Shown here: positions 19,253 to 38,503 of the stretch, piece after piece
Numbering within the stretch: the first letter of the stretch is position 1
Layout of the letters: the number at the start of each line of letters is the position of its first letter
NCBI GenBank assembly: GCA_015657675.1
Contig: JACDQI010000185.1
Span: 1-41,684 of the forward strand
Source of the DNA: Devosia sp.
Lineage (GTDB): Bacteria; Pseudomonadota; Alphaproteobacteria; Rhizobiales; Devosiaceae
DNA length: 41,684 bases
Direction of reading: 5' to 3'
Notes under the pieces: model-generated
The model's database searches: none
What the model was told of the DNA's origin: nothing
What the model saw: the letters and a program-made list of their open reading frames with translations, nothing else
Made by a program: the position numbers and the translations under genes

Positions 19253-19281
19253 GTCACACCACCGCTTGAGGGACCCCGACT

Positions 19282-21458: not shown

Positions 21459-21473
21459 ATGGCGGAGAGGGAG
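21459..21473. other. Candidate attL (tRNA-Ser 3'-end-like core)
   Basis: A 15-base exact match to 38489-38503. A repeat of this length could arise by chance in 41 kb, so the case rests on its position 147 bases before the integrase start, its likeness to the tRNA-Ser acceptor end including CCA, and the shared arm-type repeats. No complete tRNA gene is visible at either junction, which is unusual and suggests rearrangement or a secondary site. Confidence 0.55.
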
Positions 21474-21481
21474 TCCGCCTA

Positions 21482-21613
21482 ACCTTTGTTCGCCTTCATT
21501 CGCCAGAGGCCAGTTCAAGGCCAACAATCTCAGCCTTCATGGTCAATCTGTCTATCCGCATTCGCCGTTGTTCGCTACAATCCAGAAAATTGGTTAGGGC
21601 GGAATTTAGGGCG
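21482..21613. promoter_or_regulatory. Integrase upstream region with putative arm-type sites
   Basis: Between the att core and the integrase are two TTCGCC-rich pairs (about 21488-21503 and 21560-21575) and the tandem TTAGGGCG at 21594-21601 and 21606-21613. The TTAGGGCG pair, with the same four-base gap, recurs at 38416-38435 near the other end. This arrangement is what is expected for integrase or excisionase arm-binding sites. It probably also overlaps the integrase promoter. Confidence 0.5.
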
Positions 21614-21620
21614 GGCGTGA

Positions 21621-22877
21621 ATGGCAAGACTTTCGAAACGGCTCACAGCGAAGACGGTGGAGAGCATAGCCACGCCCGGCCTTCACGCCGATGGCGACGG
21701 CCTCTATCTGCGGGTTGATGCCGCTGGCGCCAAACGGTGGGTCTTCCTGTTCCGAGGCCCTGATCCGAAGAACCCCGGAAAGCTCAAACGCACTGAGATG
21801 GGATTGGGCAGGCTCAAAGATGTCGGCCTAGTCGATGCCAGAGCGAAGGTCGTAGAGGCCCGCCTAAAGACGAAAGACGGACTCAATCCCATTGAGCATC
21901 GAGCCGCACTAATCGCCGCCGCGCGCGCCGAACCCAAGGCTGTCGATACATTTGGCAAGGTCGCTACAGACTACATCGATGCACAGAAGAGCGGCTTTCG
22001 AAATGAGAAACATATCGCACAGTGGCGAATGACCCTGGGTAGCGCCTATTGCGGCGACCTCATCGACATGCCGGTAGATGAAGTCGATACCGCTGACGTG
22101 CTGGCCGTCCTGCAACCCATTTGGCAAGCGAAGAACGAAACGGCTTCACGCCTTCGTGGCCGGATCGAGCGTGTCCTGGACGCGGCGCGCGCCAAGGGTC
22201 TTCGCTCGGGGGAGAACCCTGCTCGGTGGAAAGGCCACCTCGATAAGCTGCTGGCCAAGCGTCAGAAGCTCGCTCGCGGCCACCACTCAGCGATGCCCTA
22301 CGCCGCCGTTCCCGCCTTCGTTGCTAAATTGCGCGTGTCCGGGGGGGTTGGAGCGCGGGCGCTTGAGTTCCTGATCCTAACCGCAGGCCGAACAGGGGAA
22401 GTGATCGGGGCGAGGGTTGAGGAGTTCGACCTCGCCAAGTCCCTATGGACCGTACCCGGTAGTCGAATGAAGTCTGGTAGGGAGCACCGCGTGGCACTCT
22501 CCGCACGCGCCGCAGACATTGTTCGAGAGCTGCGGGACACTAGTATCTCTCCCTTCGTCTTCGGCGCCACAGCGCACCGGCCAATCTCTAACATGACTAT
22601 GACGAAGGCGCTGGCGACGGCGGGTGGTTCGGAATTCACCGTTCACGGCTTCAGGTCGAGCTTCCGCGATTGGGTTTCGGAGGAGACCAGCTTTCCCGAC
22701 CGACTGGCGGAGGGGGCCCTAGCCCACATTGTCGGGGACCAGACCGAGCTGGCATATAAGCGCGGCGACGTGTTGGCCAAGCGCCGCGTGCTGATGGATG
22801 CGTGGGCGAACTATTGTGGGGGGCGATCAAACGCGAAGGCCCCCAGAACAAGGACCAAGAAAACCGTGCCTGCTTAA
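21621..22877 (+). CDS. int: P4-type tyrosine recombinase/integrase
   Basis: A 418-residue integrase with the N-terminal DUF4102-like arm-binding domain (GLHADGDGLYLRVDAAGAKR), a core-binding domain and a C-terminal catalytic domain. Catalytic residues are Arg at about 256 (AGRTGE), the HGFR motif near 341, His of ALAH near 370 and Tyr of AYKRGD near 378. The last block (KRRVLMDAWANYC) is also typical. It would recombine the attL/attR repeats to insert or excise the element. ATG 21621 follows the tandem TTAGGGCG sites closely, so the protein may repress its own expression. Confidence 0.95.
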   Translation: MARLSKRLTAKTVESIATPGLHADGDGLYLRVDAAGAKRWVFLFRGPDPKNPGKLKRTEMGLGRLKDVGLVDARAKVVEARLKTKDGLNPIEHRAALIAAARAEPKAVDTFGKVATDYIDAQKSGFRNEKHIAQWRMTLGSAYCGDLIDMPVDEVDTADVLAVLQPIWQAKNETASRLRGRIERVLDAARAKGLRSGENPARWKGHLDKLLAKRQKLARGHHSAMPYAAVPAFVAKLRVSGGVGARALEFLILTAGRTGEVIGARVEEFDLAKSLWTVPGSRMKSGREHRVALSARAADIVRELRDTSISPFVFGATAHRPISNMTMTKALATAGGSEFTVHGFRSSFRDWVSEETSFPDRLAEGALAHIVGDQTELAYKRGDVLAKRRVLMDAWANYCGGRSNAKAPRTRTKKTVPA

Positions 22878-22878
22878 G

Positions 22879-23133
22879 TTACTTGCGCTGGCTGAGCGGG
22901 CGCCGCAACAGTACCCCGACCGACCCGCCACCCTCATCAATGAAACTAACTCCAGCCTTCAGCATGCCGTCAATAATGGCATCGCGTGTTGACGGCCTCC
23001 CTCCGATTAGACCGTCTTCGGCGGCCTCAAGCCGAGCAATCGTAGGTTCAGATATGCCAGAGGCGATGGCCAGGTCGCCTTGCGACCAACCCAACAGCGA
23101 ACGGGCCGCCTTCAGTTGCCGGATCGATACCAT
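22879..23133 (-). CDS. Xre-family helix-turn-helix regulator
   Basis: An 84-residue small repressor. A helix-turn-helix occupies most of the N-terminal half: IRQLKAARSLLGWSQGDLA then ISEPTIARLEAAEDGL. It ends two bases from the integrase stop and is divergent to a small plus-strand gene. The 91-base divergent gap holds two near-identical palindromes that probably bind this protein, so it is the likely immunity or lysogeny-type switch of the element. The C-terminal part (GVSFIDEGGGSVGVLLR) is common in this family. Confidence 0.85.
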   Translation of the reverse strand: MVSIRQLKAARSLLGWSQGDLAIASGISEPTIARLEAAEDGLIGGRPSTRDAIIDGMLKAGVSFIDEGGGSVGVLLRRPLSQRK

Positions 23134-23147
23134 CGCATCACCTATTG

Positions 23148-23197
23148 ATAGAATTTCTATTGAATGTCGCGTGACACTCGTTTAATAGATTTTCTAT
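23148..23197. promoter_or_regulatory. Two palindromic operators in the Xre divergent promoter
   Basis: ATAGAATTTCTAT (23148-23160) is a perfect palindrome around its centre. ATAGATTTTCTAT (23185-23197) differs at one base. Their centres are 37 bases apart, in AT-rich DNA between the Xre gene and the divergent small ORF, and each lies next to one start. The arrangement fits a repressor that controls both directions. Confidence 0.65.
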
Positions 23198-23224
23198 CAG
23201 AAGCGAACCTTCGGAGCAATCGAC

Positions 23225-23488
23225 ATGGCAAGGCACTTTTCCCTGGATGGCACTCACATTGACGACGAGCTGATAGTTTTGGGCGCTAGGCTCAAGGCCG
23301 CCATCGGGCGTGAGCAGCGGAAGATTGCCGCCATACCCGTTCACTACAGCGTGTGGGATGAAATGGCGGCGATAGAGCGCGCATTGCGCCGTAGCACTCG
23401 GATCGTGTCAATGATCGCAGCGTCGGTTGCTCGGTCGGAAGCCGGCAGACGTGTCAAGGAATTCGCCCTTGCCTACATGGCAACCTGA
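23225..23488 (+). CDS. Small hypothetical protein, first gene of the rightward early operon
   Basis: An 87-residue protein, MARHFSLDGTHIDDELIVLG onward, mostly helical by composition with the segment YSVWDEMAAIERALRR. I do not recognise the family. A ribosome site GGAGCAATCGAC precedes ATG 23225. It is the first gene transcribed rightward from the operator region and is followed six bases later by a second small ORF, so it is placed like an early gene of a phage or satellite. Confidence 0.65.
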   Translation: MARHFSLDGTHIDDELIVLGARLKAAIGREQRKIAAIPVHYSVWDEMAAIERALRRSTRIVSMIAASVARSEAGRRVKEFALAYMAT

Positions 23489-23494
23489 GCAGAT

Positions 23495-23599
23495 ATGCCA
23501 ACGAGAAGGGGGCACGTTCCAATCAGCCCTCTTCATGATTTCCGTCAGTCGCCACTCTTGGGCCGTCGCTTGCGGCAGGTAGATTTCGAGGCCGCGTGA
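23495..23599 (+). CDS. Very small ORF, possibly coupled
   Basis: A 34-residue ORF (MPTRRGHVPISPLHDFRQ...) starting six bases after the previous stop and ending in a GTGA overlap with the next small ORF. Overlap at both sides suggests it is translated, but there is no homology to support it and the ribosome site (GAGCAG) is weak. Confidence 0.35.
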   Translation: MPTRRGHVPISPLHDFRQSPLLGRRLRQVDFEAA

Positions 23600-23775
23600 C
23601 CGACCTTGCCGCGCTCACTCTGCAATTCTGGAACGCTGCGCAATTCCATCGCCGCGCGCCCGAGAGAGACCAGACCAACGTCCGCCCGGTGCTCGGCAAC
23701 GTGGCAATCCACGCAGCCGGCAAACTGCATGATCGCGCCGTTGAACTGCTCAATGAGATCGACAGGCTCAAGTAG
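23596..23775 (+). CDS. Small helical protein whose 3' end lies in the 103-bp repeat
   Basis: A 59-residue ORF starting at GTG 23596 inside the previous stop (GTGA). The sequence (VTDLAALTLQFWNAAQF... AAGKLHDRAVELLNEIDRLK) looks like a real amphipathic helical protein, unlike the opposite strand. Its last 23 codons and stop lie within the direct repeat 23706-23808. The second copy of the repeat (35157-35259) carries the same 3' end, but there the frame is cut by a TGA just before the repeat. The repeat therefore appears to derive from this gene's 3' end. Confidence 0.5.
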   Translation: MTDLAALTLQFWNAAQFHRRAPERDQTNVRPVLGNVAIHAAGKLHDRAVELLNEIDRLK

Positions 23776-23808
23776 CGCCCTGTCCACCTCAACGGCTGTG
23801 GCGCTTCG
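23706..23808 (+). repeat. 103-bp perfect direct repeat, left copy
   Basis: Identical over all 103 bases to 35157-35259, in direct orientation, offset 11451 bases. The match ends abruptly on both sides. It marks the left boundary of the glycosyltransferase block. Confidence 0.97.
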
Positions 23809-23922
23809 GCTACGCTTCGCATCAATGGCAACAAATAACACAACACATTCAATTACTTAGGTATTAATCTAGGCGACGACTCAACCTCTCCTGAGTGTCA
23901 CCCAAAGACATGAGGCACGCAG

Positions 23923-24265
23923 ATGAAAACCGCATTCCTCCTGATGGCCCAGTATGACGGGATGGCTGTCATCCCCGCCGAGCTGGTCTGCCGTGACTCT
24001 TCCGGCACCTGGACCCTCTTAAGTTCGTGGCCAAGCTTCCAAGGGCGAAATCCGCCTGCCCGTGGTTCGCATGGAGGGCAGCAACAAGGCCGCCCGTGGC
24101 GTCCACCTGAACGACTTGGCGGCCTACATCGACAACGCTGCTGACACCGCTCGCAAGGAGCTGGCGCAGATCACCAAAGGCGTCCCACTGCGTGGGGGTC
24201 AGGATGCGGGGATACTGATGGGACCGTTTGTCATGGACGAAGACGGCACCATCCGGCAGAAGTGA
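23923..24265 (+). pseudogene. PrtN-family (pyocin activator) regulator, two frameshifts
   Basis: Read across frames this gives MKTAFLLMAQYDGMAVIPAE, CRD-x-F-x-HLDPLKFVAK, and then VVRMEGSNKAARGVHLNDLA. This is the conserved core of PrtN-type proteins, which in Pseudomonas switch on bacteriocin (pyocin) genes after DNA damage. One base is missing near 23998 and another near 24033, after which the frame 24062-24265 continues to a normal end. Such regulators are often linked to prophages and tailocins. Whether it is dead or mis-sequenced cannot be decided here. Confidence 0.8.
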
Positions 24266-24289
24266 ACCGGCTGGCCGCGCGGGGATGGG

Positions 24290-24706
24290 TTATCGATACC
24301 CCGTCTGCTGGAGCTTGCTGTTCTGGTACGAGGTCGGCATGAAATTGTTGTTCTCACCCGACGCACTGTAGGTCGGTTGTGTAGACGCACGGTTTGCGTC
24401 ACCAATGGCTTTTCCCTGAGCCGCATAAGTCGCCGCAGCCTGAGCCGCAGCCGCCGCAGTAGCAGCCGCCTTGGCCGTAGCCGGAGCCGCTGAGGTCAGT
24501 ACCGTCTTGCCGGCTACCGTGGTGGTCTTCGCCGGGGTGATCTGCTTGGCGGGCGTCACGAGGACGCGCTTCTGGATGAACCGGGCAGCGGCGGCGCCAG
24601 CGTTCGGCGCGCCGGATGCCAGCTTGGTAATCGATGCCTCATCGCGCTCATCGGGAGACTTGTCGCCAGTGAGCGGGTCGGCTCCGCCTCCTCCGCCAGG
24701 CCACAT
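24290..24706 (-). CDS. Ala-rich hypothetical protein
   Basis: About 138 residues. A Gly-rich start (MWPGGGGGADPLTG) is followed by a Thr/Ala low-complexity stretch around residues 55-95 with repeated AAA runs, then a polar tail with Asn and Gln (SASGENNNFMPTSY). No family is recognised. The composition is like flexible linkers in phage virion or surface proteins. It ends 24 bases from the convergent prtN-like gene. The opposite strand also has an open frame, but its product looks less natural. Ribosome site is weak (AGAGG, far upstream). Confidence 0.4.
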   Translation of the reverse strand: MWPGGGGGADPLTGDKSPDERDEASITKLASGAPNAGAAAARFIQKRVLVTPAKQITPAKTTTVAGKTVLTSAAPATAKAAATAAAAAQAAATYAAQGKAIGDANRASTQPTYSASGENNNFMPTSYQNSKLQQTGYR

Positions 24707-24724
24707 CACGGAGATGAACCTCTG

Positions 24725-25936
24725 CTACGCCGATGATGAAACTACGGGGTCCGGTCGATAGTGCGCTTCCCAGAAGAGCCGGCCGGACTCGGCCACCGCG
24801 CTGCCGTCGATGCTGCCGTTTGCCAAATCGACGATTGTCGACGCGAATTCCTCAGCGCTGTTGGCCGCCAGATAGTGCTGCAACGGTTCGACCGAAAGCC
24901 CGCGCACCCCCTCGTTCGTGGCGATGACGATGCGGGTGTGCGCGAAAGACTCGAGGACTTTGATCTTGGTGCCTCCGCCTGACCACAGGGGAACGAGGAC
25001 GATGTCGGATTGCTCGTAAGACGGAGCAAGCTCCAGCGCATCCGTGCAGCAGTGGATCTCCGGGTATCGCGCCAGCAAATCGAGGAGCGACGGAGGAGCT
25101 CCTCGTCCGACGATGGTGATCCGAAAGGGAAGGGTGAGCCGTTCCCTCAGTATCGGCACCAGGCGCCGGGCAATGAACCTCGCCGCGGCTTCATTGGGGA
25201 AATAATCGAGCGATCCGACAAACAGCAGGGAGAGGCGGTTTCCGATCGCCCGCGCTTTGGCTGCTCCAGGGTCTGGAACCCAGTTCAACCTGCAGGCAGT
25301 CGGGCGCCGCGTGCGCCTGCCGAGCCTTTCTGCATCTTCGGGACTGGCGAGGAACGTCGTCGAATAGGCTCGGCAAAGGCGTGCCTCGATGAGACGATAT
25401 TGCAGGGACGATGCAAGCAATCGCAGCGCGACCGCAGGTCGACCGGCCCAAAGCAGGGCGGAGGCGACACTGGCTCGCGTCTGCGATTCCAGATCATCCA
25501 TATCGAGGATGCGCTCCGCATCGGGATGCCGCGCAAACAGCCGACTGGCAAAATCGTGCAGATAGATTCGGAAGACGACAATTTTCCGAGTGTTCCCAGG
25601 GGTCGCGATGCCCGCCAGCAGATCGTCGACTGGCTCCCTCCAATCAGCAATGACACGCGGCAACCCGAGGACCAGCGGTGGAAACACGATTCCCGCCAGC
25701 TTCTCGTGCCGGCTCGGCGTCTTCACGGCCCGCGCAAAGGAGCGGATCGAAGCTGCCGGGTGACCTTGAGGACGTTCAAAACCCGCGGGCAGTGGATCGG
25801 CGACCAGCACGTGGACACTATGCTCCTTCGCCAATTCAGTGAGCCATCCCCAGGCGCGCATGGCGCGGCCCGAGTGGCTTGGCTGGGGCAACACCGGTGT
25901 CACGAGCAACGCAACTGGTCGCTCACTGTCAGACAT
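24725..25936 (-). CDS. Glycosyltransferase family 4-like protein
   Basis: A 403-residue GT-B fold glycosyltransferase. The C-terminal donor-binding region has LLFVGSLDYFPNEAAARF, ITIVGRGAP and PLWSGGGTKIKVLESFAH, close to GT4 enzymes of exopolysaccharide and lipopolysaccharide synthesis. The N-terminal half (LLVTPVLPQPSHSGRAMRAW) binds the acceptor. ATG 25936 overlaps the stop of the upstream GT2 gene by eight bases and has GAAGG upstream, so ATG 25936 is preferred over the start at 25951. The sugar is unknown. Probably cytoplasmic or membrane-associated. Confidence 0.88.
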   Translation of the reverse strand: MSDSERPVALLVTPVLPQPSHSGRAMRAWGWLTELAKEHSVHVLVADPLPAGFERPQGHPAASIRSFARAVKTPSRHEKLAGIVFPPLVLGLPRVIADWREPVDDLLAGIATPGNTRKIVVFRIYLHDFASRLFARHPDAERILDMDDLESQTRASVASALLWAGRPAVALRLLASSLQYRLIEARLCRAYSTTFLASPEDAERLGRRTRRPTACRLNWVPDPGAAKARAIGNRLSLLFVGSLDYFPNEAAARFIARRLVPILRERLTLPFRITIVGRGAPPSLLDLLARYPEIHCCTDALELAPSYEQSDIVLVPLWSGGGTKIKVLESFAHTRIVIATNEGVRGLSVEPLQHYLAANSAEEFASTIVDLANGSIDGSAVAESGRLFWEAHYRPDPVVSSSA

Positions 25937-26843
25937 CCTCAGCCTTCGCACTCTCAGAGTTCTTCCGGCTCAGGGTGCGAAACGCGGCCCAGCCGCGCCA
26001 CAAGCCGCCGAACCGCGAAAGATAAGCGGCGCGGCGCCAGCCGGGCAGGAACCAGATCGCCCGTGCTCCTGAGAGAAGCGTGCGAAGCCCCCAGTGCAGC
26101 ATGTGCGGGTGTGGGCACTTCGCAATGGCGGCACCGGCGCCAACTGCATAGTCGTGGAACCGCGCCGCCGCCCAACGGTTCGACGGCGGGATCTTGGTGG
26201 GGTGTTGCAGCATCACGCGCGGCTCGTAAACCGCAGCCCCTGCGCCGGTCCTGGGGAGCAACCGGTTCATCAGGTCTATCCCCTCCGCTGCCGGGAAGGT
26301 TGAGCCTGGGCCGAACCGTTGGTCGAAGCCTCCGCTGGACAAAAAGAGGTCCCGGTCGACAAATAGTGTCGCCTCGGTGAAGCGGCCGAACATGCTCCAC
26401 AGGTCGATCGGCTGGCTTGCCTTCGGCCACCGCGCGAGGTTTGGCCTACCATCGGAATCCACGGTCCGACCGGTGACTAGAGAGATCTTTGGGTCCCGAG
26501 CCAGTCTCGCGACCTGCTCAAGGGTGTCAGGCAAGAACTGGCAGTCGTCGTCGGGAAACCCGAGCCAGGCGCCCCGGGCCTCGCGCGCTCCCAGATTGCG
26601 GGCCCTCGATGCACCGCGAAACGACACCCGCATGTGCAGGATCTGCACCGCGTCGACGAACTCCGCCACGACCGCTCGCAGCTGCTCGCCACCGCCCTGG
26701 TCTACCAGTATCACCTCGAATTCGGGCGCGGTTCGCTGCCCAGCAAGACTGGCAAGCAGTGCCCTTACCAACTCGGGGTCACCCAACGTGGCGACGACCA
26801 GAGAAAGCACAACCTGGCGCTCCTCTGAAAGCGACGCAATCAT
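25929..26843 (-). CDS. Glycosyltransferase family 2
   Basis: A ~304-residue GT-A enzyme. It begins VLSLVVATLGDPELVRALLASL, has FEVILVDQGGGEQL, the DxD-type metal site FPDDDCQFLPDT, and TGRTVDSDG. The C-terminal part ends in a hydrophobic, basic segment (GARAIWFLPGWRRAAYLSRF) that could touch the membrane. The start is uncertain: ATG 26843 gives a normal N-terminus, while ATG 26894 and an open frame to 27002 would overlap the promoter or start of the divergent gene. It leads a two-gene leftward operon with the GT4 gene. Confidence 0.85.
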   Translation of the reverse strand: MIASLSEERQVVLSLVVATLGDPELVRALLASLAGQRTAPEFEVILVDQGGGEQLRAVVAEFVDAVQILHMRVSFRGASRARNLGAREARGAWLGFPDDDCQFLPDTLEQVARLARDPKISLVTGRTVDSDGRPNLARWPKASQPIDLWSMFGRFTEATLFVDRDLFLSSGGFDQRFGPGSTFPAAEGIDLMNRLLPRTGAGAAVYEPRVMLQHPTKIPPSNRWAAARFHDYAVGAGAAIAKCPHPHMLHWGLRTLLSGARAIWFLPGWRRAAYLSRFGGLWRGWAAFRTLSRKNSESAKAEDV

Positions 26844-26910
26844 TCCGTTGACAACCCCCAACCTCTCCCGACTGATACTTGGATTGCTCCGCATCCGATA
26901 GTACCGTAGC

Positions 26911-28668
26911 TTGCGACCTGTGCAAACACCGAGGACGACGCGCATTGACGAAGGTGGCCGTGCGGGAACTCCTTTGCTGAGCGATCCCAACCCTTTGCCC
27001 AAACCAATTGGTCAACGGCGATTTCCGCGCGCTTTCCACCTGCTGAAGCGCACGCTTCTGGCGCTTCGGCGTGAGGGTCTGGAGGCAACGGCGGGGCGCA
27101 TCTGGCGGTTCTTGCAGCGCCGCCCGCCGGCAGCGGTCGTTGCCGCGCTGCTTGCCCACCCCAGCTATCCTGGAAAGGCCCTCGGGGGTTCGGCGCTGAA
27201 GCCCCGCGTACTCATCATCGGTGAGATGGGCGTGCCCCAGTGCCGCAAGTACAGGGTGGAGCAGAAGCAGGAGTTGTTGGCGAGCCTCGGTATCGCGAGC
27301 CTGGCAGTGAGCTGGCATGACGTGGCAGCGGCGCGCGACGCCCTGCAATTGGTGACGCATGTCGTCTTCTACCGTGTCAAAGCAGAGCCCGAAATCATCG
27401 CCCTGATCGAGGAGGCGCGCCGGCTCGGCCTTACTACGAGCTGGGAGGCCGATGACCTGGTCTTCGATGGCGAAGCCACGGCGGCAAATCCCAACCTGCT
27501 GACGCTGCCGCCCCGGCATCGGGCCGCCATGATCGCCGACGCAGAAAAGTTTCGCTCTGCGCTGCTTCGCTGCGACCAGGCGATTGCCTCGACCGATACC
27601 CTTGCGGCCGCCATGCGCCGGGTGACAGGCGGTGAGGCGGTGGTTATCGAGAATGCACTCGACGCCGAGACGGTCGCTCTGGCCAGAAAGCTGCGTCAGC
27701 GGGCAAGGCCTGGGGACGGCCTCATCCGCATCGTCTACGGGTCGGGCTGCGACACGCACGATGCTGACCTCGAACTGGCGAGCGACGCGCTCTGCGGCCT
27801 GCTGAGCCGATCGCCTGACCTGAGGCTGCGCCTCATCGGCCCGCTGCAACTGCCCGCCCGGCTGGCCGAGATGACTTTGCAGATCGAGCGCTTCCCCCTC
27901 GTCCCCTATTCCGATTATCTGGCGCTCGTCGCCGCCTGCGACATAGCCATCGCGCCCCTCCAAGATACCGTCTTCAACGCCGCCAAGAGCAACATAAAGT
28001 ACATCGAGGCTGCCATGCTAGACCTGCCGGTGATCGCATCGCCCTCGCCAAGTTTCGCGGCGGTGATCGCGCACGGCGTCGATGGCCTTCTAGCCGCCGA
28101 TGGCGAATGGTCGACGCAACTGACGGCCTTGGTCACCGACCCGGTCTATCGCCGCCGCATCGGCCTCCTCGGTCGGCGCAACGTCATGCGCCGCTATCGC
28201 CCCGCGCTGATTGCGAGGCACCAATACGCCGGCCGTTTCGCCCCGGAGGTCGAACCGCCGCCCAACAGGCATGCGCTCATTGTCGACCTTGATCCGCGCC
28301 GTGTCGCTGGACCGAGCCTGCTGCCGGCTGGCGAACACAGACAGGATTGGCGGATCGCACGGCTGACGCGCCTCATCGGCATCGACGCTCCGATCGGGAC
28401 CATGGTCAGGTCTTCGATCGGCGACGTCGACTGCTTCGCCGTCCGGCTGCCTCGCGGCGGGCCGGCCCTGCAGCAATATCTGCGTGACACCTTCCGCGCC
28501 GTGTTCAACACCTATCGGCCAGAACTGGTGGTGCTGGTCGGGCCAAGCGTCGTCGGCGACTGGCTGCGGCAGCTTTGCGCCGAGGCCGAGGCGGTGCTTC
28601 ACTCCGTTCCTGCGAGCGATGCCGACGATGCGGAGTCCGGCCTTAAACTGACGTTGGCGGCGGGCTGA
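26911..28668 (+). CDS. Large glycosyltransferase with GT4-like domain
   Basis: Up to 585 residues. The middle (RVLIIGEMGVPQCRKYRVEQ to SNIKYIEAAMLDLPVIASPS) is a GT-B glycosyltransferase with the typical donor-site Glu region. The last ~160 residues form an additional domain I do not recognise. The N-terminal 60 residues are basic and poorly defined, and the true start could be TTG 26911, GTG 26920 or TTG 26977. It heads a rightward operon of six glycosyltransferase-type genes and is divergent from the GT2 gene at 25929-26843. Confidence 0.8.
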   Translation: MRPVQTPRTTRIDEGGRAGTPLLSDPNPLPKPIGQRRFPRAFHLLKRTLLALRREGLEATAGRIWRFLQRRPPAAVVAALLAHPSYPGKALGGSALKPRVLIIGEMGVPQCRKYRVEQKQELLASLGIASLAVSWHDVAAARDALQLVTHVVFYRVKAEPEIIALIEEARRLGLTTSWEADDLVFDGEATAANPNLLTLPPRHRAAMIADAEKFRSALLRCDQAIASTDTLAAAMRRVTGGEAVVIENALDAETVALARKLRQRARPGDGLIRIVYGSGCDTHDADLELASDALCGLLSRSPDLRLRLIGPLQLPARLAEMTLQIERFPLVPYSDYLALVAACDIAIAPLQDTVFNAAKSNIKYIEAAMLDLPVIASPSPSFAAVIAHGVDGLLAADGEWSTQLTALVTDPVYRRRIGLLGRRNVMRRYRPALIARHQYAGRFAPEVEPPPNRHALIVDLDPRRVAGPSLLPAGEHRQDWRIARLTRLIGIDAPIGTMVRSSIGDVDCFAVRLPRGGPALQQYLRDTFRAVFNTYRPELVVLVGPSVVGDWLRQLCAEAEAVLHSVPASDADDAESGLKLTLAAG

Positions 28669-28686
28669 CGGGGTAGTGAGAACAGC

Positions 28687-30333
28687 ATGACAGCCGTCGC
28701 CATTCTGGCAATGGGAAAGATCGGATATCTGCTGGCCGCGCGACAGGCGATCCAGTCGCTCCTCGCGCATAGCGACTTCCATATCCACGTCACCACCGAT
28801 GCCGCAGGTCGCCAAATGCTGCCGAACTCGCCACGGGTGCATCTGCACGTCGCCGACATCAGCACAGACTACAGGGCCGATCTGTTCATCGGCAAGTTCG
28901 TCGCTCTCGAGAACTGTCTGGCACATAGCAACGACGACATCGCGATGCTGCTCGACGCCGATGCCGTGCTCGTCGACACGATCCATGAGGCCGATCTTGT
29001 CGGCGCCCTCTCCGATGGCGGCCTCGGCATGGCGGAGCAACCGACCATTCTCGGTTCGCCCATGGACCGAAAGGAGTTCCTCGCGCATTACACGGCCTAC
29101 TCGCTGGCCTTCCTGATGCCTGGTGCAGCTCCGCCAACAGAGGCGGAGTTCCGCTTCTTCAACAGTGGCGTGGTCATCGGCCGTCGTGAGGCCTTCCGAG
29201 ACTTTCTGGACTGGGCGGCGGCAATCCGGAAAGCCCGCCCGCGCGACCATAGCGTCGGCAAGCACATGATCGCCGACCAGGACTATTTCCAGGTCTGGGC
29301 GAACAATGTGCGGCCTGGAGGCACGCTGCAGTTGCCCTGGAACTGGAACCATTGCGACAAGTGGGATCAGGGGTTTCCGCGTGCGGGTGCGCGCATCGCC
29401 CATTTCAGCAATTTCAGCAAAGGGCCAGAGATTGCGACGATCAACGACATGCGACGCCTCGCGGGCGTTGCGGCGAGCCGCGGCGCGACCCCGTCTGATG
29501 GTGGCGAGCTCAGCATCGTCATGGTCACGCACAACTCCGCCGAGCCGCTCGCCATCTGCCTCGAGTTTGCCACCGCGCTCGGCTGCCGCGTGCTGGTCGT
29601 GGACAACGGCTCGAGCGACGATAGCATTGCCATCTGCCGGGAGGCCGGCGTCGACCTGGTGGTCAATACCGCCAATCTCGGCTTCGGTGCCGCCGCCAAC
29701 CAGGGGCTCGCACTGACGGACAGCGAGTCGGTCTGTATCCTCAATCCGGACTGCCTCCTCACCTCCCCTGTTGTTGCCGCCGCCCTCGCCGTATTGCGCC
29801 ACAAACCCGACAGCCTGATCGTTCCGGAATTCATCGACTGGGATGGCAACCAGCAACCGGGACGGCAGCCGGCCTATACCGCAACGCGGCTCATCGCCGA
29901 CATCTTTGACGGCCATGGTCTTGCGCTATTTGCAGAGCCGCTGCATCGCTGGGCCGAGCAAGGCAGCGTGGCGTGGCACTGGCCGATCGGTGCCTGCATC
30001 TTCGTTCGCCGCAAGGCCTTCCTCGGGCTCGGCGGCTTCGATCCAAAATACTTCTGCTACATGGAAGACGTCCAGTTGGGTCGCGACGCCCAGCGCAATG
30101 GACAAGAGATACTGCTGCTGCCGCTGCTGGTTCCGCATTTTGGCGCCCGCGGTTCCAAGATCGCGACCGACCGGCGCCAGAAACTGCTGAACGAGGCGCG
30201 GCTTACCTATGCCAAGGCGAACTACCCGGCCCCTTTCGCTCTCGGCTTGTGGCTGCTCGATCGAAGCCTCGCGGCTGCTCATGCCCTGCGGCGCCGGCTG
30301 CGCGCGCCGATCGAAGCGGCGGGCAAGCCATGA
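28687..30333 (+). CDS. Two-domain glycosyltransferase (GT8-like plus GT2)
   Basis: A 548-residue fusion. Residues 1-270 look like a GT-A nucleotide-diphospho-sugar domain with the DxD motif in MLLDADAVLVD and FFNSGVVIGRREAF. Residues 277 onward are a separate GT2 rhamnosyltransferase-like domain (LSIVMVTHNSAEPLAI, VLVVDNGSSDDS, NLGFGAAANQGL, CILNPDCLL, FCYMEDVQLG). Two complete catalytic domains suggest that one protein adds two successive sugars. It begins 18 bases after the previous gene and ends in an ATGA overlap with the next. Confidence 0.88.
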   Translation: MTAVAILAMGKIGYLLAARQAIQSLLAHSDFHIHVTTDAAGRQMLPNSPRVHLHVADISTDYRADLFIGKFVALENCLAHSNDDIAMLLDADAVLVDTIHEADLVGALSDGGLGMAEQPTILGSPMDRKEFLAHYTAYSLAFLMPGAAPPTEAEFRFFNSGVVIGRREAFRDFLDWAAAIRKARPRDHSVGKHMIADQDYFQVWANNVRPGGTLQLPWNWNHCDKWDQGFPRAGARIAHFSNFSKGPEIATINDMRRLAGVAASRGATPSDGGELSIVMVTHNSAEPLAICLEFATALGCRVLVVDNGSSDDSIAICREAGVDLVVNTANLGFGAAANQGLALTDSESVCILNPDCLLTSPVVAAALAVLRHKPDSLIVPEFIDWDGNQQPGRQPAYTATRLIADIFDGHGLALFAEPLHRWAEQGSVAWHWPIGACIFVRRKAFLGLGGFDPKYFCYMEDVQLGRDAQRNGQEILLLPLLVPHFGARGSKIATDRRQKLLNEARLTYAKANYPAPFALGLWLLDRSLAAAHALRRRLRAPIEAAGKP

Positions 30334-31220
30334 ATTACTATTTCCTTCCAGGCACCGGCATCCATGGCGGTATCAAGGTAGGATTTCAGTTCGCCCAGAT
30401 GCTGGCCGAGCATGGCGCCCCGATGGTGGTGGTCACACCCGATGGCCGGGCCCCCCACTGGTTCGATGCAGCGGTCGCCGTGATCTCGCGACCGGCCGCC
30501 CTGGCGGCCATCCGGCCCAGCGACGTCATCCTCTTCTCCCTGCCGCACGACTATGCCGAAATCCGTTCGACCGGGGCGCGGATGATCTTTCACTGCCAGG
30601 GGACCGATCCGCTGATCGACCCGATTCTTGCCGACCGGGACGTCGCGCTACTGTCCTGCTGGGAACAGGCCGACAGCTACATGCGCGAGCGGTCAGGCCG
30701 TCCGCCCATCGCGGTCGGTATCGCGATTTCGGACTGCTTCATTTACGATGGCCGGCCCAAAATCGCGGATCAGCTTGCCTACATGCCGCGACGCGGGGTC
30801 GAGATCGCCGACGCCGCCCGTCTTGCCTGCCCGGGTTTGCGGTTTGTGGCCATCGCCGGCGCGAGCGAAGTCGAAACGGCAGCCGCCATGCAACAGAGCG
30901 CCTATTTTCTCGCGACGTCGGTCGGCGAGTGGCTGGGGCTGCCGGCTCTCGAGGCAATGGCGGCGGGTTGTGTCGTCGTCAGCGTCCCGGTGCTTGGCGG
31001 CATGGAGTTCTTGCGTGACGGGGAAACCGCGCTGGTTGTTCCGGCGGATCGGATTGGCGGGGCGCTCGCAGACCTGGCGCAGCCAAACGCAGCGTCCTTG
31101 CGGAGCCGCATCCGCGACAATGCGGCGGCGATCACCCATCAATACCGCCTCAACAAACAGTTCCGCCGCCTCAAGACCCTGCTCGGCGACACTCTGGGTG
31201 AGGCGCTGTCATGGACCTGA
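30330..31220 (+). CDS. Glycosyltransferase family 4
   Basis: A 296-residue GT-B protein starting at ATG 30330 in a four-base overlap with the previous stop (the open frame extends further upstream inside that gene). It shows FLPGTGIHGGIKVGFQFAQM at the N-terminus and the GT4 donor motif VGEWLGLPALEAMAAGCVVV, with the two Glu residues of the E-x7-E pattern. It is shorter than usual GT4 enzymes (about 350-380 residues). It overlaps the next gene by ten bases. Confidence 0.87.
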   Translation: MNYYFLPGTGIHGGIKVGFQFAQMLAEHGAPMVVVTPDGRAPHWFDAAVAVISRPAALAAIRPSDVILFSLPHDYAEIRSTGARMIFHCQGTDPLIDPILADRDVALLSCWEQADSYMRERSGRPPIAVGIAISDCFIYDGRPKIADQLAYMPRRGVEIADAARLACPGLRFVAIAGASEVETAAAMQQSAYFLATSVGEWLGLPALEAMAAGCVVVSVPVLGGMEFLRDGETALVVPADRIGGALADLAQPNAASLRSRIRDNAAAITHQYRLNKQFRRLKTLLGDTLGEALSWT

Positions 31221-31954
31221 CCGTCGTCATTCCTTCAGTTGGCCTTGCCGCCTTGCTGCGCACCTGCATTGCCCATGCTCAGTCCGCATTGGCGAGCGTC
31301 AACGAGATGACCTCGGCCGTCGTGGTGGTCGACAACGGGTCCGACCCACCGTATCGGGCCGCGGCGCTGGGATCCGGCATCGCACTTGTGCGCTTCGACC
31401 TGCCGCGTTCCTTTGCGAAGGCCTGCAACGAGGCGGCGCGGCATCGCCCCGCGGCGCGCTATCTGTTCCTCAACAACGACGTGTTGCTCGAGCCGGGGAC
31501 CCTGATCGATATGCTGTCGCTCCTCGACAACTATGGGCCCGGAATTTGTGGGGCCCGCCTCGTGCTCGCCGATGACACCGTGCAGCATTGCGGGGTTCGG
31601 TTCGACGGTGGTCCTCGGGGCCCGTTTCATATTCACCACGGCCGACCCTCCAGCATCGTGCCGAGATCTCCCGTGCGCTTCCAGGCCGTCACCGGCGCCG
31701 CGATGCTGATCGATGGCGCAGCCTTCGACCGGCTCGGCGGGTTTGATGAAGCCTATCCCTTCGGCTACGAGGACATCGATCTCTGCCTCCGGGCGGGCCA
31801 GCTGGGCATGCCGGTCCTCTGCGCGCAGGCTCACGATACGCTGCACTTCGAGTCGACGTCGAACCGCAAGCCGAACCGGCACGCCGCGTCACGCCGTCTC
31901 TTCTTCGAGCGTTGGCAGGGACGCTTCACCATTGACGGGGACACCAGCCAATGA
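31211..31954 (+). CDS. Glycosyltransferase family 2
   Basis: A 247-residue GT-A enzyme: LTVVIPSVGLAALLRTC, VVVVDNGSDPP, FAKACNEAARHR, the metal site FLNNDVLLEPG and the acceptor-side motif GGFDEAYPFGYEDIDLCLR. This pattern is close to WbbL/rhamnosyltransferase-like O-antigen enzymes. ATG 31211 lies in the end of the previous gene, and its own end overlaps the next gene (ATGA). Confidence 0.9.
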   Translation: MDLTVVIPSVGLAALLRTCIAHAQSALASVNEMTSAVVVVDNGSDPPYRAAALGSGIALVRFDLPRSFAKACNEAARHRPAARYLFLNNDVLLEPGTLIDMLSLLDNYGPGICGARLVLADDTVQHCGVRFDGGPRGPFHIHHGRPSSIVPRSPVRFQAVTGAAMLIDGAAFDRLGGFDEAYPFGYEDIDLCLRAGQLGMPVLCAQAHDTLHFESTSNRKPNRHAASRRLFFERWQGRFTIDGDTSQ

Positions 31955-32892
31955 CGGCCGCCCCAGCCCTCTCGCTGATCGTCCACACCAGGGATTCCGC
32001 CGCAACGCTGCCGGCTTTGCTCGACTCCACCAGCTGGATTCCGGAACGCATCGTCGTCGACATGCAGAGCACCGACGCGACGATCGCTCTCTGCCGCGCA
32101 GCCGGCTTCCGCGTGATCGAGGCACCCGTCACAGCGATGGTCGATGCGATCCGCAACGACTATCTCGATGCGGCGACCAACCCTTGGATACTGGTGCTCG
32201 ACTCCGACGAGCATCTCAGCGCCGACGCCCCGGAGGCGATTGCGCAACTTCTCGACACACAGGGCAGCGCGTATGACGCCTTCGGCATCCCACGCTTCAA
32301 CACGATCGCCGGCCAGGTGATGCAGGGCTCGCTGTTTTACCCCGACCATCAGATACGCCTCTTTCGCCGGGGCCATGTCGAGTGGCAGGACGGTCACCAC
32401 CATCCGCCGAAGGTTCACGGTGGGCGATTGCTGTTGCTAGCGCCGCCCTGCCTGCACATTCACCACCAGAACTACCCTAGCCTCGAAAGCTTCATCGCCC
32501 GGCAGTTGCGCTACACCCTCAGCGACAGCTATTCGACCGACCCTGCGAGCTTCGACTTCGCCGACTATATCGGGGACGCCTACGCCGCCTTCGCCAAGCG
32601 CCATGACACGGCCAGCGATGGTGACCTGTCGACCGCGCTGGCAACAGTCCTCGCCTGGGACCGTGTGATGCGTGGCCTGATCCATTGGGAACGTACCGGC
32701 CGCAGCAAACCGCTCGGCGAGGCCTTCTCGCTGCCGGTGGTGGTGCAGCCCGGGGCGACTGCTGCCGGCCAAAGCGGTCGCGCCGGACAGCTCCGCAGAT
32801 GGTTCGCGAGGCTCCCCGCGCCGGTCAAGGCCCGGGCGCGCCGGCTGCGCAGCAGGCTCAGCGACCTCGCCGGCCGGCTCCGCCGATGGTAA
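31951..32892 (+). CDS. Glycosyltransferase family 2 (WaaE/KdtX-like)
   Basis: A 313-residue GT2 with the short-motif style of WaaE/KdtX-type enzymes: LSLIVHTRDSAATL, RIVVDMQSTDATI, WILVLDSDEHLS as DxD and FGIPRFNTIAGQ, then the acceptor region DHQIRLFRRGHVEWQDGHHH. The C-terminal 40 residues are very basic (ARARRLRSRL), which suits contact with acidic membrane lipid. It overlaps both neighbours. Confidence 0.87.
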   Translation: MTAAPALSLIVHTRDSAATLPALLDSTSWIPERIVVDMQSTDATIALCRAAGFRVIEAPVTAMVDAIRNDYLDAATNPWILVLDSDEHLSADAPEAIAQLLDTQGSAYDAFGIPRFNTIAGQVMQGSLFYPDHQIRLFRRGHVEWQDGHHHPPKVHGGRLLLLAPPCLHIHHQNYPSLESFIARQLRYTLSDSYSTDPASFDFADYIGDAYAAFAKRHDTASDGDLSTALATVLAWDRVMRGLIHWERTGRSKPLGEAFSLPVVVQPGATAAGQSGRAGQLRRWFARLPAPVKARARRLRSRLSDLAGRLRRW

Positions 32893-33668
32893 CCGTCGCG
32901 CTGCAGACCAATTGCTGGCATCGCGACTGGCGCAGGGCGCTGAGCGGACCGCGTCTCGCCCAGCTTACCGAGCGCAGCGTGTTCCCCTTCGCCGAGAGAA
33001 CGCTGCTGATCAACGCTCTGAGCAACTACGACGGCGCGCTGCAGCTTGCCGGCAACGCCATCGACCGCGGCCTGCTCACGCAGGCGGTGGTTGTCGAACA
33101 GCATGCGGACGCTGCCCTCGCCGCGGTCGGCCTGTCACGCGCCGACCTCGCGGGCTCCTACGGCTACTCGATCGCCGAGCTGGTCGGCCTGAACCTCACC
33201 CGCTGCGACTACATCCTATATTTCATGAGCGACTGCCTGCCTGAGACGATAACCGACTGGATCCCCGGGGCGCTGGCGCTCATGCAGACAGAGCCGCGCA
33301 TCAAGGTGTCGAACCTGCTCTGGAATGGCAACACAGACGAGGCCCGGGCCGAGTCGGATTGGGAAACGGAGGACTTCTTCATCGGCTCCGGTTTCTCCGA
33401 CCAGTGCTACCTCGTACGGGCCGAGGAATTTCGCGCCCCCATTTATGGCTTCAGCCACCCTGGCTCCGAGCGCTATCCAGACTATGGGCAGCAGGGGTTC
33501 GAGCGCCGGATCGATTCCTGGATGCGACAGCACGGCTATCTGCGCGCCACCTTCAAGCACGCTTCCTATCGCCACTCCAATCTACCGCGACCGTTGCGCA
33601 GCCGTGTAGCGGGACGCCTCAGGGCACTGGCGGGAGGTTGGTCGCTGCATCCGAAAGGGCAGCCGTGA
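32886..33668 (+). CDS. Glycosyltransferase-like hypothetical protein
   Basis: A 260-residue protein that starts at ATG 32886, seven bases inside the previous gene. The N-terminus VTVALQTNCWHRDW, an acidic YFMSDCLPE near residue 118 and a late FERRIDSWM resemble a compact GT-A-like enzyme, but I cannot assign a family with certainty. It is the last gene of the rightward operon and its end overlaps the convergent GT2 gene by 50 bases (33619-33668), an unusually long convergent overlap. Confidence 0.6.
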   Translation: MVTVALQTNCWHRDWRRALSGPRLAQLTERSVFPFAERTLLINALSNYDGALQLAGNAIDRGLLTQAVVVEQHADAALAAVGLSRADLAGSYGYSIAELVGLNLTRCDYILYFMSDCLPETITDWIPGALALMQTEPRIKVSNLLWNGNTDEARAESDWETEDFFIGSGFSDQCYLVRAEEFRAPIYGFSHPGSERYPDYGQQGFERRIDSWMRQHGYLRATFKHASYRHSNLPRPLRSRVAGRLRALAGGWSLHPKGQP

Positions 33669-35042
33669 GGCGCTGCTCCTTATCGGCGTCGGTTCTGCGC
33701 AATTGCGCAATGCGAAAATCGTTGGGTTCGCCGTTGGGCTGGAATTCGGAATGGGCGTAGCGCTTGATCACTGCGCCATAGCCGGGCGAGTGCGCCGCCT
33801 CGCCGATCGCCACCGCGAAGTCTAGCGCGGCATGATGTTGCTTGAGCCAACGCCCGAGCCGCTCTTCGGTGTTGGCCGATATGATCTCGATTCCGGCGGC
33901 ACCCCATTGATCGACAAGCCTCGTCGCCGCAGTGCGATCGTCGATCCACAGTTTGACCACGAATGCACCGGCGAGCCGCTCGAGCATCGCATAGTCGGGG
34001 CGGGCAGCTGACAAGACTAGTACCGCGCCCCGTTTGGCGGCCCGGTCGCGCGGCGCAAAACTCTCGTCTCCCGCGATGCCGTGGCCGGCAAGTTCGGTCC
34101 GCCATTTGGCGAGAAACCTGCTGCGATTGGCCCGCAGCAACTGTCGCGAAGCGATTGAGCCGTAGGAGCCGCCGCCAACATGCACCACCTCGGAGGCCGG
34201 TTGCAGGACGACGCGACCGCCCTGCGCCCGGAGCGTGAACGCCAGGTCGGTGTCTTCGTAATAGGCCGGTGAAAACGCTTCGTCGTAGCCGCCTGCGGCG
34301 GAGAAATCGGTAGTACGCAACATCAGCGACGCGGCCGAGCAATAGTCCACGTCGTGCATGTACCGCGTCGTCGCATCGGACCGGTCACTGCCTGCGCCGA
34401 CATTGGCAGCTCGACCGTCACGCCAGACGATACCTCCTGCCTCCTGCACCGTCCCGTCCGTGTTCAGCAGTCGCGACCCGGCCGCGACGCAGCCCGGCAC
34501 CCGGCGCAGGGCGTCGAGCAGGGCATTCGCCGCACCGGCGGTAACGAGCGTGTCATCGTTGAGCAGCCAGAGGAATTCGCCACGCGCCGACCTGCTGGCC
34601 CGGTTGACCGTCCTAAGGTAGCCAAGGTTCGTGTCATTGGGGAGGAATCGCAGCCCCACCACGCTGGCGAGTTGAGCCATTGCCGGCACACCGGAGGCAT
34701 CGTCTGCCACAATGACTTCGAATTCCGTGTCCGGAGGGTGGTCGGCAATCGAGCGCAAACACCCGGCAACATGGGCGAAATTGCCGTAGCTTGTGATGAG
34801 AATGCTGAGTTGCGGCGCGTCAGACGTCCCCAACCTCAGCGCGCTCAGCTGGGCGGCCGGGTCGCCGGCAACTGGGCGCCGGCGACAGGGCTGGGCGGCG
34901 ACACCCTTCTCCGTCGCTGCCACTGCCGGTGGCGCTCCGAGCCTTCAAGCATCGGGCCGGCGAGCCCGAACAGCAAGTCGACCAGCCATCGCTTTGCCCG
35001 GCGCACTGCCTCCGACCGCGGCCAAGACGTCCCACCAAGCAT
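33619..35042 (-). CDS. Glycosyltransferase family 2, probably frameshifted near its N-terminus
   Basis: The main frame (33619-34923) encodes a GT2 domain: LSILITSYGNFAHVAGCLRS, FEVIVADDASG, FLWLLNDDTLV, GGYDEAFSPAYYEDTDLAF, then a ~160-residue C-terminal domain. Upstream, ATG 35042 with GGGAG nearby opens a different frame (MLGGTSWPRSEAVRRAKRWL, then VDLLFGLAGPM) that reads like a natural N-terminus. One extra base near 34924 would join them (RHRQ-VAATEKG). Either the protein starts at GTG 34923 or the full gene is 33619-35042 with a one-base deletion. GT activity of the main domain is well supported; the N-terminus is not. Confidence 0.78.
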
Positions 35043-35118
35043 TCTGTCTCCCGAGCGATAAGCGCAGTCGGCGATCAATGACATTGAACAGCCGCATATC
35101 GCTTTGGCCTGTATACCA

Positions 35119-35814
35119 TCATCGCCAGGAGTGTGTGGCGGTGCAATCATGGCGTGAATCCACGCAGCCGGCAAACTGCATGATCGCGCCGTTGAACTGC
35201 TCAATGAGATCGACAGGCTCAAGTAGCGCCCTGTCCACCTCAACGGCTGTGGCGCTTCGCGGAGAAACGTCCCGAACCATTCGCGCAGCAGCGGCGGCGA
35301 TACCCCGTTCCTTGGCACGCTGGACGCGATCAGCGAGGCCATCCGTCACCGAGACATCGACCACATCCTTGAACGCCTGAACGCCCACATGGCGGCCGAT
35401 CAGTTCGAGCCGCTTGATCCGATCCGATTGCTTGACCTTGCGGACGATACCGACCTTGACGCCATCGACTGAGATTTCTTCGGTCTCAATGCCGACCATC
35501 AGGCCGGTGCGCCAGATCAGAGGCCATTCGGCCACGGGCAGGAGGGCGCTGCTTTCGTCGTACAGATCGGCCATGTCCGCTTCAACCTCATCCCGAAGCC
35601 GCGACAGCACCCAGGCCGCGTCGATCCCGATGCGCGTTGCGCGATCAGTCTTGGCAAGGTCCACCGCTTCTTGCACGTCAGCATTCGTCAGCAATCGAGC
35701 AGCCTCCGTGCGCGCGCCAGACGGAGCATAGCCAGCCCTGATAGCAGCCTGAGTTCCATTCAGGTCGATCAGGTATTCTTCGACAAATCGATGCTGTTTC
35801 GGTGTGAGCGCCAT
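35119..35814 (-). CDS. Terminase small subunit
   Basis: A 231-residue TerS-type protein from ATG 35814. The N-terminus MALTPKQHRFVEEYLIDLNG, then TQAAIRAGY and ARLLTNADVQEAV, is the hallmark of phage terminase small subunits that bind the packaging site. A helical oligomerisation region follows. The last ~47 residues are read from the 103-bp repeat and beyond, so the natural C-terminus was probably altered by the rearrangement. No large terminase subunit is present, as in phage satellites that redirect helper packaging with their own TerS. The open frame upstream to 35997 lacks a ribosome site. Confidence 0.85.
   Translation of the reverse strand: MALTPKQHRFVEEYLIDLNGTQAAIRAGYAPSGARTEAARLLTNADVQEAVDLAKTDRATRIGIDAAWVLSRLRDEVEADMADLYDESSALLPVAEWPLIWRTGLMVGIETEEISVDGVKVGIVRKVKQSDRIKRLELIGRHVGVQAFKDVVDVSVTDGLADRVQRAKERGIAAAAARMVRDVSPRSATAVEVDRALLEPVDLIEQFNGAIMQFAGCVDSRHDCTATHSWR
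35157..35259 (+). repeat. 103-bp perfect direct repeat, right copy
   Basis: Identical to 23706-23808. On its left is the end of the glycosyltransferase block; on its right the terminase small subunit gene runs leftward into it. In this copy the plus-strand small ORF is cut off by a TGA at 35154-35156. Confidence 0.97.
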
Positions 35815-36103
35815 CGCAAGTGATCCGGTTGCCAGTTGTGAGCTGGAACGTAGGGGCTGATGGTTTGTTTTCAGACACGATGGCCGAACGATGTACCCGT
35901 GTCGCAGCGCCGTCACTATTTTATTCAACGGGATCAGAGACTTATCATCAGGTGACGCAGTGTAGGCTAAACTTCCCATATGTGTGTATGTGTGCACATA
36001 TACGGAACTTTTGGGGTAAAGTGCTACACCTGATGATAACCCACTGAAATTGTTGACTAAAATAGTGAAAACTGTGCGTCATTGGTGCTACACTATGCGT
36101 CAT
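35815..36103. promoter_or_regulatory. Repeat-rich AT-leaning gap: inverted repeat and iteron-like motifs
   Basis: TTATCATCAGGTG (35942-35954) and CACCTGATGATAA (36027-36039) are a perfect 13-base inverted repeat 72 bases apart. GTGCTACAC occurs at 36021-36029 and 36085-36093, TGCGTCATT at about 36075 and 36096, and the same TACACT/GCGTCA words appear in reverse near 35955. An alternating ATATGTGTGTATGTGTGCAC tract lies between. The region could be the satellite's replication origin or a controlled promoter for the terminase gene. No gene is seen from 35815 to 36049. Confidence 0.45.
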
Positions 36104-36541
36104 TTGCGGATCACGAGCGCCGACATCGTGGCATTCGCCACCGAGCTATCGGACGGGCGACAGCCGCAGACGGTCGGGAACTACATCAGCCACCTAGCGG
36201 CCATCTTCGCCATTGCCGGCCCCGCATGGGGCATCCGGCTTGATCCAGCGGCTATGGCAAGCGCTCAGAAGGTCATGCGCAGGCTTGGCACCACGTCGAA
36301 GAGTGCCAGCAGGGACCGGAGACCCACCCTAGACGAGCTGGAGCGGATCATGGGGCACTACGCCCAGCGCCAGACCCAGCGGCCGGCTATGGCCCCTATG
36401 ACGCGCCTCATCGCGTTCGCGATCTACTCCACCAGGCGCCAGGCGGAGATCACCCGGCTTCAGTGGTCGGACCTGGACGAGGCAGAGCTAAGCGCCATCC
36501 ACCCGGCCGCAAGATATCCCCTTCGCCACCGTACCGCTTGA
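36050..36541 (+). pseudogene. Internal fragment of a second tyrosine recombinase
   Basis: A region beginning RITSADIVAFATELSDG, then RQPQTVGNYISHLAAIFAIA, and RRPTLDELERIM to FAIYSTRRQAEITRLQWSDLD matches the core-binding domain and first catalytic Arg region of a phage-type integrase. Both the N-terminal part and the remaining catalytic motifs (HxxR, Tyr) are missing. After about 36480 the frame runs antisense to the helicase end, so the fragment was joined to the helicase gene by a rearrangement. It has no expected function. Confidence 0.75.
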
Positions 36542-37960: not shown

Positions 37961-38160
37961 CGGATCACCGGGAGGTTGCGAAGAAACGCCTGGACATCCT
38001 CATGAAGAACAAGTGTGCGGCGGCCAACCTTGCGCGCCGGCAGAGCCCCTGAGTTGATCTGGCAGTAAAGGTGCGTACGACCGACGCCGAGAATTTTGAG
38101 CAGGTCGGGGATGGTGTATGCGAGGGCAAAGGCCTCTTTCGCAGTATCTAAATCAGCCAT
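37957..38160 (-). CDS. AlpA/excisionase-like helix-turn-helix protein
   Basis: A 67-residue protein with a MerR/AlpA-type DNA-binding fold: YTIPDLLKILGVGRTHLYCQ, then GALPARKVGRRTLVLHEDVQAFL. In P4-like satellites and PICIs such proteins act as excisionase or activator and lie next to the primase-helicase gene, as here (ATGA overlap). An 8-base inverted repeat, CGGTTTCT (38174-38181) and AGAAACCG (38225-38232), lies just upstream and might be its site. Confidence 0.85.
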   Translation of the reverse strand: MADLDTAKEAFALAYTIPDLLKILGVGRTHLYCQINSGALPARKVGRRTLVLHEDVQAFLRNLPVIR

Positions 38161-38488: not shown

Positions 38489-38503
38489 ATGGCGGAGAGG
38501 GAG
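38489..38503. other. Candidate attR (tRNA-Ser 3'-end-like core)
   Basis: Same 15 bases as the left core. The match to a tRNA-Ser 3' end goes on to 38509 (TGGCGGAGAGGGAGGGATTC read on plus), then stops. The rest of the tRNA is absent, so the original target gene was lost, moved, or never complete here. Confidence 0.55.

Follow-up and report, generated by a model that had tools for sequence, protein, structure and literature searches.

The 41,684-nt window analysed here is the whole of one contig (C297) of a 3.94-Mb Devosia sp. genome bin, which comprises 317 contigs and is 85.25% complete and 4.87% contaminated. In it, nine glycosyltransferase-type genes lie between two identical copies of a 103-bp direct repeat, and genes of phage type lie on the outer sides of both copies (Table 1). 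We compared the window with 19 genomes of the genus (G codes; its own and 18 others) and with single loci (L codes).

The repeat and the glycosyltransferase block

The two repeat copies are in direct orientation with a spacing of 11451 nt and agree at 103/103 positions (100% identity, by string equality of 23706-23808 and 35157-35259). Identity breaks off abruptly on both sides, the adjoining 100 nt agreeing at 23% on the left and 20% on the right in ungapped comparison. Both properties had been described in the initial annotation, made from this DNA alone, and were recovered here. A search of the 317-contig bin revealed no third copy, no match to the repeat was listed in the 18 other genus genomes, where it was searched within longer queries, and a 44-nt piece of it had no exact match in viral contigs. 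The z score of the repeat for folding as RNA was -0.41.

Copy 1 forms the 3' end of a small coding-like open reading frame (ORF; 23596-23775), whose 5' part is intact. Copy 2 holds only the last 22 codons of this ORF, with the glycosyltransferase genes to its left and the gene of the terminase small subunit (TerS) to its right, and it overlaps the 3' end of the TerS ORF (35119-35997, minus strand). No relative of the small ORF was found in 135 other genomes of the family or in phage and plasmid collections. The idea that TerS is a gene interrupted by the block was weakened, as the frame is not coding-like to the left of copy 1 and the TerS domain ends before the repeat.

Exact repeats of the bin were surveyed in 107 contigs or stretches totalling 1.21 Mb (the window and part of contig C27 included; 15 of 122 were mostly N and were dropped). 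The sole longer repeat was a 104-nt prefix common to two contig starts, and those next in length measured 83, 74, 69 and 68 nt. The contig sequence passes through both copies of the 103-bp repeat. As far as the assembled sequence goes, the arrangement is real, and slightly odd.

Eight of the nine genes between the copies scored above Pfam cut-offs with GT1- or GT2-type domains, which bears out their initial assignment, and six matched glycosyltransferase families of PHROGs, five of them weakly. The segment also holds a split PrtN-like phage gene and an ORF at 24290-24709 for which no relative was found even at an E value of 10; this ORF is alanine-rich, and the low-complexity filter of BLAST may hide relatives. 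The block had been described as devoid of a transposase or integrase of its own, and none was detected among the longer ORFs inside, which the scan covered. Its G+C content was 0.649, compared with 0.640 in the genome sample. The phage flanks had values of 0.601 and 0.591, reached or undercut by 1.4% of 553 and 0.4% of 558 windows, respectively.

DNA matches to the block occurred in 7 of the 19 genus genomes, its own included; they were long only in G000, G001, G012 and G018, and spanned only 34-49 nt in the three remaining genomes. The long relatives in 3 of the 18 other genomes (G001, G012 and G018) had about 66-70% DNA identity and the same order. On one contig of G012, eight of the nine genes are kept in order (the counterpart of 24782 to 34851), with no counterpart of the gene at 26911-28668. 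The initial annotation had named chromosomal glycosyltransferase genes without satellite genes on either side, in other genomes, as an observation that would speak against it. In G012, none of five flanking ORFs searched with Pfam (one also with PHROGs) matched a phage family; they encode a DUF2306 protein, an epimerase-like protein, another GT2 protein and two proteins without family. The right-hand part of the G018 cluster is followed by ~1.4 kb common to G001 and then by a phage recombination module (L052, G018:C48, 4552-10178), and the G001 contigs are too short for their surroundings to be judged. The sequence shared by G018 and G001 ends inside a 569-aa ORF of G001. For one of the glycosyltransferases, 77 candidate stretches of viral contigs yielded no relative, and 12 of 61 such stretches from bacterial genome contigs encoded one. 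Judging by these comparisons, the cluster looks like a surface-glycan locus of ordinary bacterial (chromosomal) origin.

At two loci of Mesorhizobium qingshengii (L062 and L068), relatives of the glycosyltransferase genes lie <5 kb from DNA related to the ABC transporter genes at 691-3155 of the window; in the window itself, these and the glycosyltransferase genes are >20 kb apart.

Table 1. Features of the window in order of position
Feature	Position	Strand	Evidence
Probable left attachment core TGGCGGAGAGGGAG, 14 nt	21460-21473	+	~150 nt before integrase start; same core at 38490; matches tRNA-Ser 3' ends of relatives
Tyrosine integrase, 418 aa	21621-22877	+	PF22022, PF13356, PF00589; phrog_1
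Helix-turn-helix (HTH) repressor-like protein, 84 aa	22879-23133	-	PF01381, barely above cut-off
Small coding-like ORF, 59 aa, 3' end inside repeat copy 1	23596-23775	+	Codon score 0.343 bits/codon; GC by position 0.73/0.39/0.75
Direct repeat copy 1	23706-23808	+	Exact-repeat search of window
PrtN-like phage gene, split over two frames	23923-24265	+	Homolog L056:7242-7583 is PF11112; two-frame match up to 24175
ORF, 139 aa	24290-24709	-	No match in PHROGs or phage records
Glycosyltransferase cluster, nine genes, about ten kb	24725-34923	mixed	Pfam for 8/9
Glycosyltransferase gene	24725-25951	-	Family above Pfam cut-off
Glycosyltransferase gene	25929-27002	-	Family above Pfam cut-off
Glycosyltransferase gene	26911-28668	+	Family above Pfam cut-off; PHROGs glycosyltransferase family, E 2.6e-21
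Glycosyltransferase gene	28687-30333	+	Family above Pfam cut-off
Glycosyltransferase gene	30336-31220	+	Family above Pfam cut-off
Glycosyltransferase gene	31211-31954	+	Family above Pfam cut-off
Glycosyltransferase gene	31951-32892	+	Family above Pfam cut-off
Glycosyltransferase-type gene	32907-33668	+	No Pfam match; homolog in same order in G012, G018, G001 (query: longer ORF 32685-33668)
Glycosyltransferase gene	33619-34923	-	Family above Pfam cut-off
Terminase small subunit (TerS)	35119-35997	-	PF03592, phrog_51; Terminase_2 domain about 35362-35808
Direct repeat copy 2	35157-35259	+	Exact-repeat search; inside 3' end of TerS ORF
Truncated second tyrosine integrase	36050-36487	+	phrog_22184, phrog_1; ORF runs to 36541; homology ends at 36483
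Phage primase/helicase	36488-37960	-	PF19263 (DUF5906/primase), phrog_864
AlpA/excisionase-like protein, 67 aa	37957-38160	-	phrog_66, weak, E 1.2e-05
Probable right attachment core	38490-38509	+	14-nt core TGGCGGAGAGGGAG extended to 20 nt matching tRNA-Ser 3' end; no tRNA body behind

The phage-type element and its boundaries

Phage-type genes were confirmed outside both repeat copies, namely the integrase (PF00589) and the HTH gene on the left, and the Terminase_2, DUF5906/primase and AlpA-like genes on the right. Their affinities are mixed: the PrtN-like gene and the second integrase have their matches in BcepMigl-type Burkholderia phages, TerS matches G013 and the primase matches G007. A single-protein query, which reaches close relatives only, found no relative of the primase in viral contigs. 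Two genes show signs of decay, the PrtN-like gene running over two frames and the second integrase, which abuts the primase gene, being cut at 36483. Between TerS and the cut integrase, a 156-nt stretch (35913-36068) matches its own reverse complement at 71%, and part of it is common to the TerS region of G013. On the contig of this TerS relative (L055, G013:C45), a TIR-domain protein is encoded at 3272-4789, and from about 10500 there are ORFs with a short peptide repeat that by eye resemble a CRISPR array.

The 14-nt sequence TGGCGGAGAGGGAG stands at both edges as a probable attachment core. The 20 nt at the right edge are identical to the tRNA-Ser 3' end of L045 (19/20 in L046-L049) and to a tRNA-Ser-like sequence on another contig of the bin (L150); ARAGORN, run on seven loci, reported tRNA-Ser in six (L044 to L049) and tRNA-Thr in the remaining one. 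At the left site, the likeness is confined to the 14-nt core, as a 19-nt tRNA pattern (<=3 mismatches) matched 38491 alone. On G008:C13, the 14-nt core followed by TCCG, as in the window, precedes an integrase 54% identical to that of the window. Since the core stands before an integrase homolog in G008 and at both edges here, a phage-derived element is likely bounded at about 21460-38490, at a tRNA-Ser-like site. It would measure 17.0 kb between the cores and ~5.6 kb once the block and one copy of the repeat are subtracted. An intact tRNA site at the right-hand end was rejected, the core having no tRNA body behind it, and the window as a whole gave no tRNA with ARAGORN. Past 38510, a second element could follow in tandem, but the contig ends at 41684; a minus-strand ORF at 41479-41684, by eye like the C-terminus of a tyrosine recombinase and without a Pfam match, may be part of it.

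The left 21.4 kb of the window holds ABC transporter genes, carotenoid-type genes, a polyprenyl synthase gene and a dgoD-like gene in two pieces. With DNA identity to genus relatives of up to 87%, this part looks chromosomal in character. The dgoD-like gene (19282-20591) is interrupted by a gap of one base when compared with a genus relative (87% identity) and would be either a pseudogene or the product of a sequencing error. A CCTCATGGTGAGCCTGTCGAACCACGAGG-type repeat of 29-38 nt occurs in three copies (11661-11698, 19164-19201 and 19222-19253), one of them inverted with respect to the other two, and has many further matches on other contigs of the bin and in the genus.

Origin of the arrangement

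We suggest, with middling confidence, that a chromosomal glycan locus was brought into a decaying phage-derived element, and that the repeat is a duplicated gene end that supplied homology, not an attachment site. On this view, the 103-bp repeat would represent the 3' end of a small gene that is complete at copy 1, and copy 2 would be a fragment of it. The block could have entered through the homology of the repeat by the general (RecA-type) recombination of the cell; alternatively, the repeat may have been left by duplication during a rearrangement. A junction through shared homology would account for a repeat without a recognisable site at its start or end. A site used by a recombinase is less probable, as the ORFs scanned between the copies yielded no recombinase family and the searches for the repeat turned it up nowhere else. 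As the copies are identical, either the event was recent or gene conversion has acted on them; we infer a recent event, with homologous recombination or duplication as the route. If the two copies recombined with each other, the block could be lost and a single copy would stay behind. Since the contig is continuous across both copies, other arrangements seem to have been rare in the sample, an argument that depends on the word size of the assembler as inferred from contig ends. No sign of an actively moving module was found in the sequence.

Several observations weigh against this reading. The TerS frame stays open through copy 2 and is coding-like there (0.275 bits/codon), so that either copy of the repeat could be the original one. 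Because no relative of the small ORF was found, it is a phage gene by presumption. The tetranucleotide composition of the block is moderately unusual, with 6.5% of 77 windows deviating as strongly from the mean (1.6% for the phage flanks). In G018, the glycosyltransferase genes lie near phage recombination genes (exonuclease, RecT, NinB and a Dda-like helicase), and phages could indeed carry the cluster. Moreover, the outer boundaries of the element depend on a 14-nt core in a window without a tRNA, a tRNA-Ser-like sequence with the same 3' end sits on the other contig (L150), and the bin is fragmented, incomplete and contaminated to the degree given above.

Alternatively, the glycosyltransferase locus might lie between two independent phage remnants with a short identical stretch in common, in which case the block was never inserted into one element. 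The presence of two different integrases (21621-22877 and 36050-36487), the position of the integrase and the AlpA-like gene at opposite ends and the mixed affinities of the phage-type genes would suit such an origin. However, 103 identical bases require a recent common source in both remnants, and the outer cores agree with a single unit. In G012, moreover, the glycosyltransferase cluster and the gene that adjoins the left edge are on different contigs, and no gene of the cluster was matched on that of the latter (15.45 kb). We regard two remnants as unlikely.

The initial annotation had read the surrounding element as a phage satellite, and we judge a working satellite with the block as cargo in a bay between the repeats to be rather unlikely, slightly more so than two remnants. 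The integrase, HTH, TerS, primase and AlpA-like genes and the probable cores at both edges agree with that reading, and accessory genes are known in satellites (available text of PMC6092414). No virion gene was found among the ORFs scanned in 21460-38490, short and overlapping ORFs not all being covered, and this absence fits either a satellite or a gutted prophage. Against satellite status, the same core and a homologous integrase occur in the G008 element (G008:C13), which also encodes a DnaB-like helicase and a major head protein; the attachment site and integrase are therefore of prophage kind. In G007, PrtN is preceded by genes with matches to internal virion and lysis families and followed by the primase and TerS. 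From the G008, G007 and Burkholderia phage matches it follows that several parts of the element are of prophage kind. Further points against a working satellite are the broken PrtN-like gene and cut second integrase, the small size of ~5.6 kb without the block, the integrase and AlpA-like gene at opposite ends and the lack of a known helper. The initial annotation had also proposed looking for related genomes with the satellite but without the block, or with other cargo. No empty or excised form was seen, no match to the repeat being listed in the 18 other genus genomes. Among the open-access PubMed Central papers listed, none, judged by title and abstract opening, dealt with satellites with glycosyltransferase cargo. 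A satellite with a cargo bay is possible, though not best supported, and a decayed mosaic prophage fits as well as a satellite.

We also considered an assembly error at a repeat near the resolution limit of the assembler. The longest exact repeats in 1.21 Mb of the bin measure 103 and 104 nt, suggesting a word size near 105, bin contigs end in shared stretches of 37-104 nt, and dgoD, which is conserved in the genus, has a one-base gap. A repeat below this inferred word size, however, is bridged by single reads, the contig continues through both copies, and among exact repeats whose copies both lie in contig interiors the next in length has 68 nt, so we consider an error improbable. That an independent mobile element carries the block as its cargo and has the repeats as attachment sites, as the length and perfect identity of the repeats would suit (attachment-site duplications can include a gene 3' end), is highly improbable given the lack of a recombinase family in the ORFs scanned between them and of matches to the repeat in the other genus genomes and, for the 44-nt piece, in viral contigs.

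Relation to known systems and meaning

We compared the element with the Gram-negative phage-inducible chromosomal islands (PICIs), taking the criteria from the available text of PMC6092414. There, these islands have a conserved organisation of integrase, replication module and master regulator, an attachment site unused by prophages and no phage structural or lytic genes; they are typically about 12-15 kb long and are induced by, and packaged in, a helper phage (PMC6092414). The window likewise has an integrase, an AlpA-like regulator, a primase, TerS and accessory genes, and no virion genes among the ORFs scanned. It differs in that the integrase and the AlpA-like gene are at opposite ends, that a second, cut integrase lies between TerS and the primase, and that genes of the element are broken. 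Its attachment core is not private, since it also stands before the prophage-like integrase of G008, and its size of 17.0 kb with the block or ~5.6 kb without it lies outside the typical range.

Serotype-converting prophages carry a small gtr operon that consists of the flippase gene gtrA, gtrB and a specific gtrC. The window, in contrast, has nine genes with chromosomal relatives and a host-like G+C content. The Pfam scan covered the cluster genes and matched no flippase family among them. A likeness to the gtr prophages (P22 and Shigella SfI; available text of PMC10883804 and PMC3636060) is that phage-borne glycosyltransferases could change surface sugars.

The cargo hotspots of P2 phages and P4 satellites resemble the window in having variable genes at one place of a phage-type element; theirs, according to the available text of PMC9122126, hold antiviral systems, whereas the site in the window has no known second cargo. 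In Lessievirus-type phages (Burkholderia phage BcepMigl), PrtN-like DNA adjoins a tyrosine recombinase gene, and both match pieces of the window, where, in contrast, the two pieces are ~12 kb apart and both damaged.

At present, the window represents a single case, from a fragmented genome bin, and mainly shows glycan genes and phage remnants becoming mixed. Any role for the host, or against competing phages, is speculative. It is a doubtful but wider conjecture that phages or satellites of Devosia acquire entire glycan loci from chromosomes and exchange them, with short gene ends held in common serving homologous recombination; one event would then swap the whole surface sugar coat, and the window and G018 would be two cases. 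If the block does move with phage-derived DNA, much of the surface glycan machinery could be replaced in one step, and phage remnants would be linked to the spread of surface loci.

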